The notes under the pieces were generated by a model. That model did no database searches. It saw nothing but the letters and a program-made list of their open reading frames with translations, and was not told where the DNA came from. Made by a program: the position numbers and the translations under genes. Shown piece after piece: positions 28,554 to 60,259 of a stretch of DNA of 64,000 nt (its first letter is position 1; each line of letters begins with the position of its first letter). Source of the stretch: Bradyrhizobium sp. Arg816 (GTDB lineage: Bacteria > Pseudomonadota > Alphaproteobacteria > Rhizobiales > Xanthobacteraceae); assembly GCF_029989365.1 (NCBI RefSeq), contig NZ_JAPRAQ010000018.1, positions 1-64,000 on the forward strand, in the 5' to 3' direction.

Positions 28554-29483
28554 ATGCTGAAACAGCTTTTTGCGCCGCAACTTGTCATCCTCTATGTGCT
28601 CGCGGCTTCGACCATTTACGTTCACTTCCGCGGCAAGCAGCGACTGCGCTTCGCGCGCCAGCTCGGCGATCACTCGACCTATCTCGCGCCCTACAACGTG
28701 CTGATGTATGCGGGCTCGGCCGTGCCCAACAAGCCGGTGATCCCGGTCGAGCAGTTTCCGGAGCTGAAGCCGCTCAGCGAGAATTGGGAGACCATTCGCG
28801 ACGAGGCCGTGCGCCTGTTCGACGAAGGCTTCATTCGGGCCGCCGCGAAGAACAACGACTGGGGCTTCTACTCGTTCTTCAAGAGCGGCTGGAAGCGCTT
28901 TTACCTGAAATGGTACGACGACTTCCTGCCCTCGGCGCGCACGCTGTGCCCGAAGACGGTGGAGCTGCTCAACGCGATCCCGAGCGTGCACGGCGCGATG
29001 TTCGCGATGCTGCCGCCGGGCGGCAAGCTGGGCGCGCACCGCGATCCCTTCGCCGGCTCGCTGCGTTATCACCTCGGCCTCGTCACGCCGAACTCGAACA
29101 AGTGCCGCATCCTCGTCGACGGCGTCGAATGCGTCTGGCGCGACGGCGAGGCCTTCATGTTCGACGAGACCTTCATCCACAGCGCGGAGAATGCGACCGA
29201 CGTCAACCGCATCATCCTGTTCTGCGACGTCGAGCGCCCGATGAAGTACGGCTTCATGACCGCGATCAACCGCTGGGTCAGCCATCACATCGTCAAGGCC
29301 TCGGCGACCCAGAACGTGGACGGCGAGAGCGTCGGCGTCCTCAACAAGGTGTTCGGCAAGCTCTACGAGATCCATCTCGGCAGCCGCAAGGTCAAGGAGT
29401 GGAACCGCAACGTCTACTACACGCTGAAATACTCGCTGACGGCGCTGATCCTCGGTCTCATCGTGATGTCGGCGCTGCGCTAA
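28554..29483 (+). CDS. lpxO: Aspartyl/asparaginyl beta-hydroxylase domain protein, LpxO-like lipid A hydroxylase
   Basis: This 309-residue Fe(II)/2-oxoglutarate dioxygenase has an N-terminal membrane anchor (PQLVILYVLAASTIYVHF) and a C-terminal one (SLTALILGLIVMSAL). The iron ligands are His and Asp in GAHRDPFAGSLRYHLGL and the distal His in FDETFIHSAEN. LpxO adds a 2-hydroxyl to an acyl chain of lipid A at the inner membrane. The two anchors and the motif set fit LpxO rather than a soluble Asp-hydroxylase, but the substrate is inferred. A strong terminator follows. The surface-polysaccharide region begins a few kilobases downstream. Confidence 0.8.
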   Translation: MLKQLFAPQLVILYVLAASTIYVHFRGKQRLRFARQLGDHSTYLAPYNVLMYAGSAVPNKPVIPVEQFPELKPLSENWETIRDEAVRLFDEGFIRAAAKNNDWGFYSFFKSGWKRFYLKWYDDFLPSARTLCPKTVELLNAIPSVHGAMFAMLPPGGKLGAHRDPFAGSLRYHLGLVTPNSNKCRILVDGVECVWRDGEAFMFDETFIHSAENATDVNRIILFCDVERPMKYGFMTAINRWVSHHIVKASATQNVDGESVGVLNKVFGKLYEIHLGSRKVKEWNRNVYYTLKYSLTALILGLIVMSALR

Positions 29484-29494
29484 TCCGCCCTACG

Positions 29495-29525
29495 AAAAAC
29501 CCCGGAGCAGGCTCCGGGTTTTTTT
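29495..29525. terminator. Rho-independent terminator between convergent lpxO and mosA
   Basis: AAAACCCCGGAGC and GCTCCGGGTTTTTTT form a GC-rich stem with a short loop and a T run on the plus strand. The A run on the other side makes it usable from the minus strand as well, so it probably ends both lpxO and mosA. Confidence 0.9.
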
Positions 29526-29543
29526 GCGGACGTTGCTGCGGCC

Positions 29544-30371
29544 TCACACCGGCTTGGCGCCGGTGTTGATGATCGACCCCACATGCTGCCCGCGCAGCGC
29601 CGCCGCGATCCGGCCGGGAACGAGGCCGTTGACCACCTGCACGCGCGCGATGTGTCGTGCGTTGGCCATCACTTCGAGCAGCGCGGGATCGAACGGCAGT
29701 GTGCCCTTCAGCTTCGCAAGATCGGCAAAGCTCGTCTCTTTCAGCAGCTCGGCCTTCTTGCCATCCGCGCCATTCGGATCGGTCGTGTAGACGCCGTCAA
29801 CGTCCTCCACGATCGTGAGCCCGGCAGCGCCAAGCGCGTCGGCGAGCAGGAAGGCGCCGGTATCGGCCCGATGCAGCGGGATGCGCGCGGTCGGGAATTC
29901 ATGATGGTGGTAGGGCGGGAACGCGCTGCCGACGACAGCGCGCGCCGCCTGGAGGTGAATGGCGAGCTGGCTCGCGATGGTCGGGTGCTCGACATAGGAG
30001 ACACCCTCCGGTGCGAGCAGGCTTGCCAGGATGTGGCCGTTCTGGCCGGCCTCGCTGGCGGCGAGCGGTGCGAGCGAACCCACGGGAAGGCCGAGATCGA
30101 GGCCGACGCTGTAGAGATGGCGCGCGCGGATGCCGGCGCCGGTCAGGATGAGCAGGCGATGCTCCGGCAAGAGCGACCGCAGCTCGTCGACGAGCGGGAG
30201 GATCGCTTCGTGACCGCGGTCCATGATGCGGCCGCCGATCTTGATGACCTGCAGCCAGGGCAGCAGCTTGATCGGGCGGTTGCCGGCAACGGGGCGGGTG
30301 AGATCGCTGTCGAGCAGAGTCTGGCGCGCGAGCGGCGAGGCGACGTGCTTGATCTGGTTGGTATCAGCCAT
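29544..30371 (-). CDS. mosA: Molybdenum storage protein, alpha subunit
   Basis: This 275-residue amino-acid-kinase-fold protein closely resembles the Azotobacter vinelandii MoSto alpha subunit (276 aa). It has the opening [32 protein letters not shown], and the diagnostic triple His at residues 155-157 in [10 protein letters not shown] that binds polyoxomolybdate. MoSto is an alpha3-beta3 cage that stores more than a hundred Mo atoms as oxide clusters, with ATP driving loading; this is family knowledge. The gene follows mosB by 13 bases on the same strand. It would buffer molybdate for nitrogenase or molybdopterin enzymes. Confidence 0.93.
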
Positions 30372-30384
30372 GACGGTGCTCTCT

Positions 30385-31197
30385 TCAGCTCGCGGTGATG
30401 ATGGTGCCGACATGCTCGCCCGCAAGCGCGCGGGTGAGATTGCCGGGGACGAGGCCGTTGATGATCTGCACCTGCCGGACATGGCGCGCCGAGGTGAGGA
30501 GATCGAGCACCGGGAATTCGAGGATCGAATCCTGCAGGCCCTTGGCCTTCATCTCCGCCACCGAGATCTTCGGGATGAAGGTGGCGTTCTTCGACGTCTT
30601 CGGGTTCGCGGTGTAGAGGCCGTTCTCGTCCTTCACATAGATCATCGCTTTGCAGCCGAACTGCTCGGCGACGAGGAAGCATCCGGCGTCGGTCCGGTAG
30701 GGCGGGATCACGCCCTCGGCCGCGGGCCGCATCCACAGGCTATAGGGCGGCATGCCGCTGAAGATCACCGCACTCACCTCGGCAAGGAACAGCGGCACGG
30801 ACGACAGCCCGGCGCTGGAGACGGCGGAGATACCGTGCTTGGCCAGCAGCTGCCCGAGCATCGCGGCGTTCTGATCGGCGACGGAAGCCCCGAGTTGCGA
30901 CAGCACGCCGGCCGGCAGCCGGAGCCCGGCGGCGATCGAATACAGATGCCGCGCACGGGTGCCGGCGCCGGTTCCGATCAGGAGCTTGTGCGCCTTGCGG
31001 GCGGCGACGATCTCCTCGACGATTGGATAGACCGCGGCACGGCCGCGATCGATCATGCTCTGGCCGCCGATCTTGATGACGGTTGCATCGGGGAGGATGC
31101 GGAAGTCCGCTGCCTTCTCCGCTGCGGCCACAAGCTGTGGGTCGGTGAGCGAGCGCTGCATCAGCAGCCCCTCGAGCTCCGTGATCGTGTTCGACAT
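30385..31197 (-). CDS. mosB: Molybdenum storage protein, beta subunit
   Basis: This 270-residue product has the same length as the A. vinelandii MoSto beta subunit and shares its characteristic stretches: [53 protein letters not shown] and a C-terminal [14 protein letters not shown]. It carries the kinase-fold ATP site but lacks the triple His of the alpha partner. It is the promoter-proximal gene of a two-gene operon with mosA. The start at 31197 gives exact family length; a second ATG nine bases upstream is possible. No molybdate-responsive operator was recognised upstream. Confidence 0.93.
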
Positions 31198-31316
31198 CCG
31201 AGACATCCTCTCGTTTTCTGATGCAGTCTCTGCGGCGGACCCTTCAGCCTCGACCGCGAATCTTGCCGCACACTTCAGTCCATGGCAACAAGGTGGCCGC
31301 GATTTAGCGGCCAAAC

Positions 31317-31787
31317 ATGGAGCAGGCAATGGCCCCGTTGCCACTTGCGAACACCGAGATCGTGCAATTCTTCCGCGAGTGGTTGGATACCTTCTCAGGC
31401 TATGTCCGCGAGGTCGACTACGCCTCGGCGCGGCCGCTGTTTCACCCGGACGTGCTCGCTTTCGGCACGCATAACGACGTCATCCCGGGGCTCGACCAGT
31501 GGGTTACGACGCAATGGAATAACGTCTGGCCGAAGACGACCGACTTCCGCTTCGTCCTCGACCAGGTCTCGATCCTGGCGTCCCCCGACGGCACGATGGC
31601 GACGGTGGTCGCGCCGTGGACGAGCAAGGGCTACCATCCCGATGGCAGCGCGTTTCCGCGCCCCGGCCGAGCGACGATGGTGTTTTCAAAAGATGGCGAT
31701 GGCTGGCTGTGCGTGCATTCGCACATGTCGCTCAATCGCGGGGTGCCGCAGGCAAGCCATGCCAATCGGCCGGTGAAGGCCTGGTAG
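31317..31787 (+). CDS. NTF2/SnoaL-like domain protein (156 aa)
   Basis: A compact alpha+beta protein of the NTF2-like superfamily (DUF4440/SnoaL type). It has IVQFFREWLDTFSGYVREVD, a central DFRFVLDQVSILASPDGTMA and the C-terminal strand CVHSHMSLNRGVP. No enzyme residues can be assigned. A second ATG at 31329 with a GGAG site is an alternative start. It is divergent from mosB with a 119-base gap and ends at a symmetrical terminator facing the FAH-family gene. Confidence 0.75.
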   Translation: MEQAMAPLPLANTEIVQFFREWLDTFSGYVREVDYASARPLFHPDVLAFGTHNDVIPGLDQWVTTQWNNVWPKTTDFRFVLDQVSILASPDGTMATVVAPWTSKGYHPDGSAFPRPGRATMVFSKDGDGWLCVHSHMSLNRGVPQASHANRPVKAW

Positions 31788-31794
31788 AAATGCA

Positions 31795-31823
31795 AAAGGC
31801 CCCGGACATGTCCGGGGCCTTTC
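31795..31823. terminator. Bidirectional terminator
   Basis: AAAAGGCCCCGGACA and TGTCCGGGGCCTTT form a near-perfect stem of more than ten pairs with A-rich and T-rich flanks. It is placed between the convergent NTF2-like and FAH-family genes. Confidence 0.88.
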
Positions 31824-31844
31824 GATTTCCAGATGTCGTTCAGC

Positions 31845-32546
31845 CTATTCCGGCTGGCCGACGCTCACCTTCAGCGTGCCGACGCCGTCGACGCCGCATT
31901 CGAGCTTGTCGCCCGGCTGGAGCTGCGACACGCCGGCCGGCGTGCCCGTCATGATGATGTCGCCGGCGGCGAGCTTCACCTGCTGGGAGAGCTGCCAGAT
32001 GATCTCGGGCACGTTCCAGATCAGCTCGGTGAGATCGCCCTTCTGGGCTTCCTTGCCGTTGACCGTCAGCCAGATCCTGCCTTTGGCGGGATGGCCGATC
32101 TTCGAGGCCGGCTGCACTGCGGAGCAGGGAGCCGAGCCGTCGAACGACTTGCCGATCTCCCAGGGGCGCTCCTTCTTGCGCGAGGCGATCTGGAGGTCGC
32201 GGCGGGTGAGGTCGATGCCGACGGCGTAGCCGTAGACATGCTCGAGCGCCTTGTCGGCGGGGATGTTGAGGCCGCCGCTCTTCATCGCGACGATCAGCTC
32301 GACCTCGTGATGCAGATCCTTGGTTAGCGGCGGATAGGGAATGGTGGCGCCGTCGGGCACCAGCATGTCGGCGTGCTTGGCGAAGAAGAACGGCGGGGCG
32401 CGCTCGTCGTTGCCCATCTCGCGGATGTGCTCGAGATAGTTGCGGCCGACGCACCAGATGCGGCGCACCGGATAACGACCGCTCTCCCCGACGACAGGAA
32501 GCGAAGCCTGGGGCGGAAGCGGAATGACGTAGGAGGCGGCGTTCAT
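31845..32546 (-). CDS. Fumarylacetoacetate hydrolase family protein
   Basis: This 233-residue FAH-fold enzyme shows the opening RIWCVGRNYLEHIREMG, the metal ligands of the family in HHEVELIVAM and VYGYAVGIDLTRRDLQ, and GDIIMTGTPAGV near the C-terminus. FAH-superfamily members hydrolyse C-C bonds of acylpyruvates or decarboxylate oxaloacetate, and this short form is closest to acylpyruvase/maleylpyruvate-type members. The exact substrate is not predictable. It precedes the MsbA-like gene on the same strand but is 38 bases downstream of it, so the two may be co-transcribed. Confidence 0.88.
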   Translation of the reverse strand: MNAASYVIPLPPQASLPVVGESGRYPVRRIWCVGRNYLEHIREMGNDERAPPFFFAKHADMLVPDGATIPYPPLTKDLHHEVELIVAMKSGGLNIPADKALEHVYGYAVGIDLTRRDLQIASRKKERPWEIGKSFDGSAPCSAVQPASKIGHPAKGRIWLTVNGKEAQKGDLTELIWNVPEIIWQLSQQVKLAAGDIIMTGTPAGVSQLQPGDKLECGVDGVGTLKVSVGQPE

Positions 32547-57949: not shown

Positions 57950-60259
57950 ATGGCGGCTCCCATCAAGTTCGGCGTTGGCCAAAGCGTGCTGCGCAAGGAG
58001 GATGACGCGCTTATCCGCGGCAAGGGCCGCTATACCGACGATTACGCGCCGCAGGCCGCACTTCGCTGCCTGATGCTGCGCTCGCCGCACGCGCATGCCA
58101 AATACACCATCGATGCGAGCCGGGCCCGCACGCTGCCGGGCGTTGCGCTGATCCTGACCGCCGATGACGTCAAGGATCTCGGCAATCTGCCCTGCCTGTT
58201 CAATCTCGAGACCGATCCGTTCACCGGCCCGCCTTACCCGATCCTCGCCAAGGACGAGGTGCGCCATGTCGGCGATTCCATCGCCTTCGTGGTCGCCGAG
58301 ACCATTGACCAGGCCCGCGACGCGATCGAGGCGATCGAGGTCAAATGGAGCCCGCTGCCGGCGGTGACCGGCGTCGTCAACGCCGTCAAGAAGGGCGCCC
58401 CGCAGGTCTGGCCGGACAAGGCCGGCAACGTGCTGTTCGACGTCTCGATCGGCGACAAGGCCGCGACCGAGGCTGCCTTTGCCAAAGCGCATGCGGTTGC
58501 CGAAATCAACATCGTCAATCCGCGCGTGGTCGCGAGCTTCATGGAGGCGCGCGCGGCGGTTTGCGAATACGACGCCAAGCGCGATCATCTGACGCTGACG
58601 GTCGGCAGCCAGGGCAGCCATCGCCTGCGCGACATCCTCTGCCAGAACGTGCTCAACATCTCCACCGAGAAAATGCGGGTGATCTGCCCCGACGTCGGCG
58701 GTGGGTTCGGCACGAAGCTGTTTCCGTACCGCGAATACGCCTTGATGGCGGTCGCCGCGCGGCAGCTCAAGAAAGCAGTGAAATGGGCGGCCGACCGCAC
58801 CGAGCATTTCATGGGCGACGCGCAGGGCCGCGATAACGTCACCACCGCCAAGATGGCGCTGGCCGAGGACGGCAAATTCCTCGCGATGGATTGCGACCTG
58901 ATGGGCGACATGGGCGCGTATCTGTCGACGTTCGGCCCCTACATTCCGCATGGCGGCGCCGGCATGCTGCCGGGCCTCTACGACATCCAGGCCTTCCACT
59001 GCCGGGTGCGCACCATCTTCACCAACAGCGTGCCGGTCGACGCCTATCGCGGCGCGGGCCGTCCCGAAGCGGCCTATGTGATCGAACGTCTGGTGGACGC
59101 GTGCGCGCGAAAACTCGATATGACGCCGGACGCCATCCGCCGCAAGAACTTCATCCCGCCGAAGGCGCTGCCGTACAAGACGGCCACGGGCAAGGTCTAT
59201 GATTCCGGCGATTTCGCCGCGCATCTCAAGCGCGCGATGGAGATCGGCGAGTGGAAGGAGTTTCCCAAGCGCGCCAAGGCGGCCAAGAAGAATGGCCTGA
59301 TCCGCGGCATTGGCCTTGCGAGCTATGTCGAGATCTGCGGCGTGATGGGCGAGGAGACCGCCAATGTGCGGCTCGATCCCAGCGGCGACGTCACCGTCCT
59401 GATCGGCACACAGTCGAGCGGGCAGGGCCACCAGACGGCTTATGCGCAGATCGTCGCCGAGCAGTTCGGCCTGCCCCCGGAGCGCGTGCACGTGCGCCAG
59501 GGCGACACCGACGAGATCGCCACGGGGCTCGGCACCGGCGGCTCGGCCTCGATCCCGTCAGGCGGCGTCAGCGTCGAGCGCGCCACGCGTGAGCTCGGGC
59601 AGAAGCTGAAGGAGATCGCGGCGCAGGCGCTGGAAGCCAGTGCCGGCGACCTCGAGCTCTCCGACGGCGTCGTGCGGATTGCCGGTACCGACCGTTCGAT
59701 GTCGTTCGCCGATCTCGCCAAGCGCGGGAGCACCGATCCATCGAAGCTTAACGGCAGTGCGACCTTTGCCAGCGCCGACGGCACCTATCCGAACGGCACG
59801 CATCTGGCGGAAGTCGAGATCGATCCGGCGACCGGCATCATCAAGATCGTCAACTACGTGATCGTCGACGATTTCGGCAAGACGCTCAATCCGCTGCTTT
59901 TGGCGGGCCAGGTGCATGGCGGCGCCATGCAGGGCATCGGTCAGGCGCTGATGGAGCAGGTGGTCTACGGCGCCACCGACGGGCAACTGATCACCGCGAC
60001 CTTCATGGACTACGCACTGCCGCGCGCGGCGGATGGTCCGGACTTCGTGTTCGAGACCAGCAACGTTCCCTGCACGACCAATCCGCTGGGCGTGAAGGGG
60101 GCGGGCGAGGCCGGCGCGATCGGCTCCTGTCCGGCCGTCGTCAACGCCATCGTCGACGGGCTCTGGCGCGAATACAAGATCGACCACATCGACATGCCGG
60201 CCACCCCGGAGCGGGTGTGGATCGCCGTCAACGAGCACCACCGCCGTCACAGCCTTTAA
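57950..60259 (+). CDS. Xanthine dehydrogenase/CO dehydrogenase-type molybdopterin-binding large subunit
   Basis: The 769-residue product is the large (molybdenum) subunit of a xanthine-oxidase-family hydroxylase. It has VLRKEDDALIRGKGRYTDDY at the N-terminus, GGGFGTKLFPYREYAL in the first Mo-cofactor region, TQSSGQGHQTAYAQI in the second, and the catalytic Glu720 in GVKGAGEAGAIGSCPAV. The CoxL active-site Cys loop (AYRCSFR) is replaced by AYRGAGRPEA, so it is not a form I CO dehydrogenase. The FAD (medium) and 2Fe-2S (small) subunit genes are not adjacent, which is unusual. The next gene encodes a class II cytochrome c, a possible electron acceptor. Confidence 0.9.
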   Translation: MAAPIKFGVGQSVLRKEDDALIRGKGRYTDDYAPQAALRCLMLRSPHAHAKYTIDASRARTLPGVALILTADDVKDLGNLPCLFNLETDPFTGPPYPILAKDEVRHVGDSIAFVVAETIDQARDAIEAIEVKWSPLPAVTGVVNAVKKGAPQVWPDKAGNVLFDVSIGDKAATEAAFAKAHAVAEINIVNPRVVASFMEARAAVCEYDAKRDHLTLTVGSQGSHRLRDILCQNVLNISTEKMRVICPDVGGGFGTKLFPYREYALMAVAARQLKKAVKWAADRTEHFMGDAQGRDNVTTAKMALAEDGKFLAMDCDLMGDMGAYLSTFGPYIPHGGAGMLPGLYDIQAFHCRVRTIFTNSVPVDAYRGAGRPEAAYVIERLVDACARKLDMTPDAIRRKNFIPPKALPYKTATGKVYDSGDFAAHLKRAMEIGEWKEFPKRAKAAKKNGLIRGIGLASYVEICGVMGEETANVRLDPSGDVTVLIGTQSSGQGHQTAYAQIVAEQFGLPPERVHVRQGDTDEIATGLGTGGSASIPSGGVSVERATRELGQKLKEIAAQALEASAGDLELSDGVVRIAGTDRSMSFADLAKRGSTDPSKLNGSATFASADGTYPNGTHLAEVEIDPATGIIKIVNYVIVDDFGKTLNPLLLAGQVHGGAMQGIGQALMEQVVYGATDGQLITATFMDYALPRAADGPDFVFETSNVPCTTNPLGVKGAGEAGAIGSCPAVVNAIVDGLWREYKIDHIDMPATPERVWIAVNEHHRRHSL

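Follow-up and report, generated by a model that had tools for sequence, protein, structure and literature searches.

A Bradyrhizobium gene pair predicted to encode molybdenum storage protein, and a class of relatives without its cluster ligands

Described storage systems and the gene pair in the window

All of the experiments on molybdenum storage protein (MoSto) that we found in the literature were done with Azotobacter vinelandii, for which structures have been deposited (PDB 2ogx, 4f6t and 6gu5). The octamolybdates in MoSto are covalently bound to one histidine and one glutamate, according to a passage in PMC6294228. A 2019 study of the A. vinelandii system (PMC6448029) likewise writes the region as mosBA. 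Its passages state that MoSto was without known homologues in protein databases, and that the literature disagrees on whether its expression depends on molybdenum. The statement on homologues contrasts with the use of K00947 as mosAB in a passage of a rhizosphere study (PMC13188454). It also contrasts with RefSeq, where the name 'molybdenum storage protein subunit alpha' was given on the two Azospirillum plasmids that were examined.

The TOBE-domain proteins Mop and Tub have a fold different from that of MoSto. They share with it a storage role for molybdenum or tungsten, as passages in PMC3440940 and PMC3627308 describe (see also PMC11980592 and PMC12585683). Mop binds molybdenum as molybdate, and not as clusters (a passage in PMC3627308). 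The passages of PMC4999443 that were searched contained nothing on molybdenum storage.

The window, a stretch of 64,000 nucleotides from Bradyrhizobium sp. Arg816, had been predicted to carry a two-subunit MoSto operon. Two adjacent genes with intact reading frames were found on its minus strand, mosB followed by mosA (Table 1). They fill the predicted span exactly, beginning with the mosB ATG at 31197 and ending with the mosA stop codon at 29544. This order, and sizes of about 270 and 276 codons, are those of the A. vinelandii pair.

Table 1. Features of the mosBA locus (positions in the window; Av, A. vinelandii)
Feature	Position	Strand	Basis
mosB, MoSto beta subunit, 270 aa, first gene	30385..31197	-	PDB 2ogx_B, B1 branch
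mosA, MoSto alpha subunit, 275 aa, second gene	29544..30371	-	PDB 2ogx_A, A1 branch
mosB-mosA gap, 13 bp, with Shine-Dalgarno-like AGAGAG ahead of the mosA ATG	30372..30384	-	sequence reading
MosA His155-His156-His157 codons (Av alpha His156-158), polyoxomolybdate ligand region	29901..29909	-	
MosA His139 codon (Av alpha His140)	29955..29957	-	
MosA Glu128 codon (Av alpha Glu129)	29988..29990	-	
MosB Lys42 codon (Av beta Lys42)	31072..31074	-	
Divergent intergenic region to SnoaL-like gene, 119 bp, presumed mosB promoter	31198..31316		
Terminator-like hairpin between mosA and convergent Asp/Asn hydroxylase gene	29501..29518	both	7 pairs, T tail on both strands

The A. vinelandii MosA entry has 276 residues, one more than the window protein, and the two MosB proteins are of equal length. 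Both pairs aligned without gaps, with 233 of 270 residues identical in MosB (86%) and 217 of 271 in MosA (80%), in agreement with the claimed likeness in length and over long stretches. When PDB chains were searched by phmmer, MosB matched 2ogx_B over its full length (E 4.8e-151), and residues 3-274 of MosA matched 4-275 of 2ogx_A (E 4.7e-142). The cross matches between alpha and beta lay at about 1e-50 to 1e-54. A search of the whole 9.7-Mb genome with the alpha protein gave mosB and mosA and no further match at E <= 0.001.

AA_kinase was the sole Pfam family seen in both proteins. This domain is common to MoSto and the amino-acid kinases, including UMP kinase (PyrH), and RefSeq labels the beta subunit in Azospirillum accordingly: 'uridine kinase' in seven of ten MosB-matching plasmid records and 'uridine monophosphate kinase' in one. 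The pair might then encode a UMP kinase or another enzyme of this kind, and a comparison placing both proteins there was what the original prediction had named as telling against it. In that comparison MoSto led by over 100 orders of magnitude: the best UMP kinase chains in the PDB gave E values of only 1.2e-4 (alpha) and 8.8e-6 (beta). The scores of alpha and beta were 51.2 and 54.4 bits with the pyrH_arch model (cut-off 158.05), and 18.8 and 31.8 bits with pyrH_bact (cut-off 243.9). We give the kinase reading next to no chance.

The NCBIfam enzyme cut-offs were missed by far. None was reached among the matches listed (25 of 26 for alpha), and an identity as UMP or other amino-acid kinase is disfavored.

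For the residue comparison, Glu129, His140 and His156-158 of A. vinelandii alpha were taken to be the cluster-site residues, and Lys45 of alpha and Lys42 of beta the nucleotide-site lysines. The window MosA agreed with its counterpart at all ten alpha positions examined (those six, including Lys45, together with His130, Gln136, His168 and Glu190, in A. vinelandii numbering). The predicted cluster of alpha histidines 155-157 was thus present. Both nucleotide-site lysines were kept, and MosB also kept Lys189. The titles of two PDB entries name the variants H156A (6h6w) and Kb42S (6ris), which shows that the depositors had singled out two of these residues.

Over both genes, dN/dS was 0.04-0.23 against 11 orthologous loci (Nei-Gojobori), showing purifying selection on each. 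In a quick tree of 76 rows, which was unrooted and had SH-aLRT as its only branch support, the window MosA fell in the canonical alpha branch A1 with A. vinelandii MosA (support 100) and the window MosB in the canonical beta branch B1 with A. vinelandii MosB (99). Each subunit grouped with its A. vinelandii counterpart and was separated both from the other subunit and from the class II sequences (described below). The A. vinelandii proteins sat among alphaproteobacterial sequences.

The full-length PDB matches, the distance to UMP kinases and the low dN/dS all favor the predicted MoSto operon. Judged by sequence, the two genes are intact, conserved orthologues of those of A. vinelandii, and metal binding is predicted for their products. 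No evidence against this identity was found. The pair very probably encodes the molybdenum storage protein of this Bradyrhizobium; its assembly, metal binding, pumping and the enzymes fed we infer from the same likeness. By homology to the solved structures, and given the behavior of the A. vinelandii protein described in PMC6448029, three alpha and three beta subunits would form a closed cage, into which ATP hydrolysis would drive molybdate (and tungstate). Alpha residues around Glu128, His139 and His155-157 would hold the polyoxometalate clusters, and the metal would be released as the pH rises. The protein may thereby act as a cytoplasmic buffer, which would supply FeMo-co synthesis while nitrogen is being fixed and molybdopterin enzymes at other times, and would also take up stray tungstate.

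Host genome, surroundings and regulation

A nifD gene scoring over its cut-off was found on a contig other than that of the window, and NifE, NifN and NifB, also over their cut-offs, were encoded in the same cluster. The nifD search produced no vnfD- or anfD-like match in the genome: its second match (320 bits) was a protein that scored 641 bits as NifE (cut-off 505), and the only other match was a weak one within the same cluster. NodC and one ModA were over their cut-offs, and the best ModE-like match was partial (53 bits). By this gene content the host is predicted to be a nodulating diazotroph with a Mo-nitrogenase.

The window locus thus resembles A. vinelandii MoSto in gene order, lengths, identity, ligands and lysines, but it belongs to a Bradyrhizobium genome that has nif and nod genes and gave no vnfD or anfD match in the nifD search. 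The pair appears to be an ordinary member of the MoSto family in an uncommon host. With an intact copy alongside nod and nif genes in one strain, a possible nodule role is open to testing.

Upstream, mosB is divergent from a SnoaL-like gene. Downstream, mosA converges on an aspartyl/asparaginyl hydroxylase gene, followed by an FAA hydrolase and a LysR regulator. No known metal gene was seen among the neighbors scanned. The order of SnoaL-like gene, mosBA and hydroxylase gene recurred in ten related Bradyrhizobium loci (L066-L075), and an eleventh (L120) had the same setting around a mosA remnant. In two others (L079 and L082), the SnoaL-like gene had mosBA on its opposite flank, a sign either of separate insertions or of a rearrangement.

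A search upstream for ModE or molybdate-responsive sites had been proposed, and it yielded no support for either. A regex for TATA-type palindromes detected no ModE-like box in about 250-300 bp upstream of mosB, and Rfam at E 0.1 over 29000-32000 gave no riboswitch above threshold before mosB, its one match being below the gathering score and outside mosBA. No site was found in a sigma-70 consensus scan of 29300-31500. Terminator-like sites numbered three in the scanned region, against 1.1 expected. Applied to other loci, ahead of mosB or its class II counterpart, the palindrome scan gave a few isolated matches (L041, L093, L097, L181 and L182). The best was in L181, a Nitrococcus MAG, in which a ModE-box-like palindrome lies about 110 bp ahead of mosB.

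No match to the pair was found in the phage collection, and plasmid matches occurred in Azospirillum only. The ten plasmids with mosB matches include NZ_CP007798.1 and NC_013859.1; the beta subunit was named uridine or UMP kinase on eight of them, so that MosB goes under the name of uridine kinase in most matching plasmid records.

Metal genes beside mosBA in relatives, distribution and possible roles

In relatives, canonical mosBA adjoins different molybdenum or tungsten genes. A gene for a ModE-like regulator followed mosBA in L096 and L103, and a truncated homologue was present in L094. The L096 protein has an HTH plus TOBE; that of L103 has a Mop domain over the cut-off and missed the ModE equivalog cut-off. 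Two actinobacterial loci and one Methylococcus MAG encoded ModB over its cut-off near a canonical pair, and the MAG had a Mop-domain protein nearby as well.

Genes resembling tupA and tupB were located near canonical mosBA in five Bradyrhizobium loci, and also in a sixth locus where no more than a mosA remnant is left. These may point to protection from tungstate as the main job of the protein, which would then be a combined Mo/W sink with the molybdenum reserve secondary. The genome of the window encodes two TupA-like proteins with 67 and 61% identity to the one in L116. They fit such a role, as does the tungsten sensitivity of an A. vinelandii mosBA deletion (a passage in PMC6448029). On the other hand, the L116 TupA-like protein scored 228.7 bits against an equivalog cut-off of 400, which leaves its metal unsure, no tup gene adjoins the window pair, and other mosBA loci adjoin ModE-like or ModB genes. 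We consider tungstate protection unlikely as the main job; storage of molybdenum, with uptake of stray tungstate, is the reading preferred here.

A Rhodopseudomonas locus (L092, genome G744) carried on one strand mosB, mosA, a gene for a small secreted protein, a NifA-type activator gene, a NifH-family gene, anfD and anfG, which places mosBA just upstream of an Fe-only nitrogenase run. The last two were over their cut-offs, and the activator scored 479.5 bits against the nifA cut-off of 528.85. The small secreted protein (L092:5980-6504, minus strand) belongs to no Pfam family, and its gene adjoins mosBA in the Rhodopseudomonas loci L092, L093, L195 and L200. In the window's own genome, a protein 51% identical to the L092 copy is encoded directly upstream of modA (L219:5454-5969, minus strand). 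This protein is probably molybdenum-related.

The distribution was estimated in four samples, which were draws and not censuses. Of the 195 genomes in the genus sample, 45 matched: 38 had a canonical alpha that covered 240 residues or more, three had fragments and five had a divergent pair, one genome (G043) having both a canonical and a divergent pair. In the family sample there were matches in 31 of 198 genomes, in 10 of 47 genera. The class draw (1/385) and the phylum draw (1/398), with at most six first-look candidates scored per genome, each gave the window's own genome as the sole match.

Among the 38 canonical carriers of the genus, 27 had nifD over the cut-off, compared with 99 of the 157 others (odds ratio 1.4, p 0.45). 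These others include the three fragment carriers and four genomes whose only pairs are class II. In the family, the proportions were 19 of 31 carriers (counting the class II genomes G611 and G637 and a partial match in G755) and 30 of 167 others (p 2e-6). Both Fisher tests counted genomes as independent, with no kinship correction. The nifD matches of G156 and of G175, a carrier, were below the cut-off and were counted as absent. Carriage in the genus is therefore patchy and not tied to nifD, and there is no one-to-one correspondence between molybdenum storage and nitrogen fixation.

These counts bear on the claimed link of stored molybdenum with nitrogenase or with molybdopterin enzymes such as the 57950 hydroxylase. 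The window protein at 57950-60259 (plus strand) is a large subunit of the xanthine-dehydrogenase/CO-dehydrogenase type with both molybdopterin-binding (MoCoBD) domains. The claim gained from these domains and from nifD in the genome; against it are the 27 kb between the two loci and the lack of association between mosBA and nifD in the genus. The link is plausible. A role specific to nitrogenase is opposed by the 11 of 38 genus carriers with no nifD over the cut-off.

The protein could instead serve mainly molybdopterin enzymes, such as the one at 57950, and not nitrogenase. The lack of association with nifD in the genus, the 12 of 31 family carriers with no nifD over the cut-off, and the MoCoBD domains argue in this direction, whereas the family-level association (kinship uncorrected), the Rhodopseudomonas locus with mosBA beside NifH-family, anfD and anfG genes, and the donation of molybdenum by A. 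vinelandii MoSto to FeMo-co synthesis in vitro (a passage in PMC6448029) argue in the other. We hold this possibility to be less likely than not, and a buffer that would supply both kinds of enzyme remains our preferred interpretation.

Fragments of mosA were present in three of the 195 genus genomes, G077 (L121), G110 (L120) and G138 (L119), and mosB was split between two frames in G769 (L122) and G673. Either the genes are decaying in some relatives, and can therefore be lost, or the assemblies are in error. Such remnants would also fit a pair that is a functionless relic in the present strain. But the window frames are intact, their dN/dS against orthologues is low, and the proteins of G177 are 100% (alpha) and 99.6% (beta) identical to those of the window. 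A relic is very improbable.

Class II MoSto-like pairs in other genomes

The divergent Bradyrhizobium pairs, which lie outside the window, were 40-42% identical to the window MosA and 52-56% to MosB. They belong to a second class, here called class II, whose beta subunits were 52-58% identical to the window MosB overall. A scan of 84,980 named genomes gave 283 relatives. The best 80, ranked by likeness to class II beta, were followed up and the other 203 left out, so that canonical pairs are under-represented; 53 of the 80 were class II. These came from eleven phyla (Acidobacteriota, Actinomycetota, Bacteroidota, Chloroflexota, Cyanobacteriota, Gemmatimonadota, Myxococcota, Planctomycetota, Pseudomonadota, Thermomicrobiota and Verrucomicrobiota), although many of the genomes are metagenome-assembled, so that individual phylum assignments may be in error. 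Fifty of the 53 loci had the beta and alpha partners together.

The class II loci are L036-L040, L105 and 53 of the named L126-L205, with four places listed under two identifiers (L036/L128, L038/L126, L039/L130 and L105/L127). A downstream protein in L104 matched the two class II subunits equally well (247 and 241 bits) and was left out.

Like A. vinelandii MoSto, class II consists of adjacent beta and alpha genes. MoSto was the best PDB match of both subunit profiles, at 1e-88 for alpha (best other 1.6e-15) and 7.3e-111 for beta (best other 1.2e-11). The predicted model of the class II alpha (pLDDT 83.9) also resembled MoSto (Z 32.5) more closely than UMP kinases (Z 24.2). Class II thus consists of MoSto relatives, with MoSto as best match ahead of the UMP kinases.

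The cluster-ligand residues of canonical alpha were absent from class II. The residue table was limited to alpha proteins of at least 230 aa and had 101 rows including A. vinelandii (105 for beta). In it, all 50 class II alpha sequences were without Glu129, His140 and every one of His156-158. In these sequences position 129 was always P and position 158 always W; position 140 was F (47), L (2) or I (1), position 156 was S, A or E, and position 157 was L or I. Lys45 of alpha and Lys42 of beta were kept.

In the unrooted tree, canonical alpha, canonical beta, class II alpha and class II beta each formed one branch. The two betas joined with a support of 100, leaving class II alpha outside them, on a branch of its own that was weakly supported (73). 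Given the four single branches and the joined betas, the alpha/beta duplication would, most simply, have preceded the split between canonical and class II pairs, on a tree that is unrooted and supports class II alpha at 73. The name 'alpha' for this subunit is in doubt, resting as it does on gene order and the tree. Its profile was closer to MoSto beta (1e-88) than to alpha (8.4e-76), BLAST leaned likewise to beta, and its fold barely separated the two MoSto subunits (Z 32.5 against 32.4); this subunit resembles MoSto beta at least as well as it does alpha.

Class II pairs often lie near molybdate-transporter genes. Of the 53 named class II loci, 21, spread over eight phyla, had a ModB-like gene (tblastn at 1e-8) in the surrounding DNA, compared with 4 of the 27 named canonical loci (Fisher p 0.04, with unequal lengths of flanking DNA and no correction for kinship) and 5 of all 87 canonical loci. 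With one or two modB per genome, we estimate that about 1% or less would have one nearby by chance. Fifteen of 17 class II ModB candidates were over the equivalog cut-off (14 of 16 from the 21, plus that of L037); those of L176 and L179 were below.

In the Bradyrhizobium locus L037, genes for ModA, ModB, a ModC-like ATPase and a WD40-repeat protein precede the class II pair on one strand. The ABC ATPase scored 259.3 against the ModC cut-off of 285.05. Related orders recurred in L036 and L038-L040.

These findings may be interpreted as MoSto being one branch of an older and wider two-subunit family that handles oxometalates, in which the cluster-binding histidines of canonical pairs, present only in part in an actinobacterial side branch, were a later gain. 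We regard the chances for and against this as evenly balanced. If it is true, class II would use another chemistry to load molybdate or tungstate, or would pass the metal on in place of storing it as clusters.

No published description of class II was found in the open-access papers covered by the search, subscription papers being beyond it, and the main text of a survey of molybdenum utilization (PMC6147048) mentions none of storage, MoSto, MosA or Mop. A sister class that has no cluster ligands and lies beside molybdate transporters is the more novel matter reached from the window locus.

Seven alphas of the canonical type kept His140 but were without Glu129, His156 and His157, and six of them were also without Lys45. 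They came from Pseudonocardiales and other Actinomycetota, a Chloroflexi MAG and a Nitrococcus MAG.

The WD40-repeat protein of L037 (8319-10475, minus strand) and its homologues are encoded between the transporter genes and the class II pair, and the copy in L040 has 13 repeat stretches.
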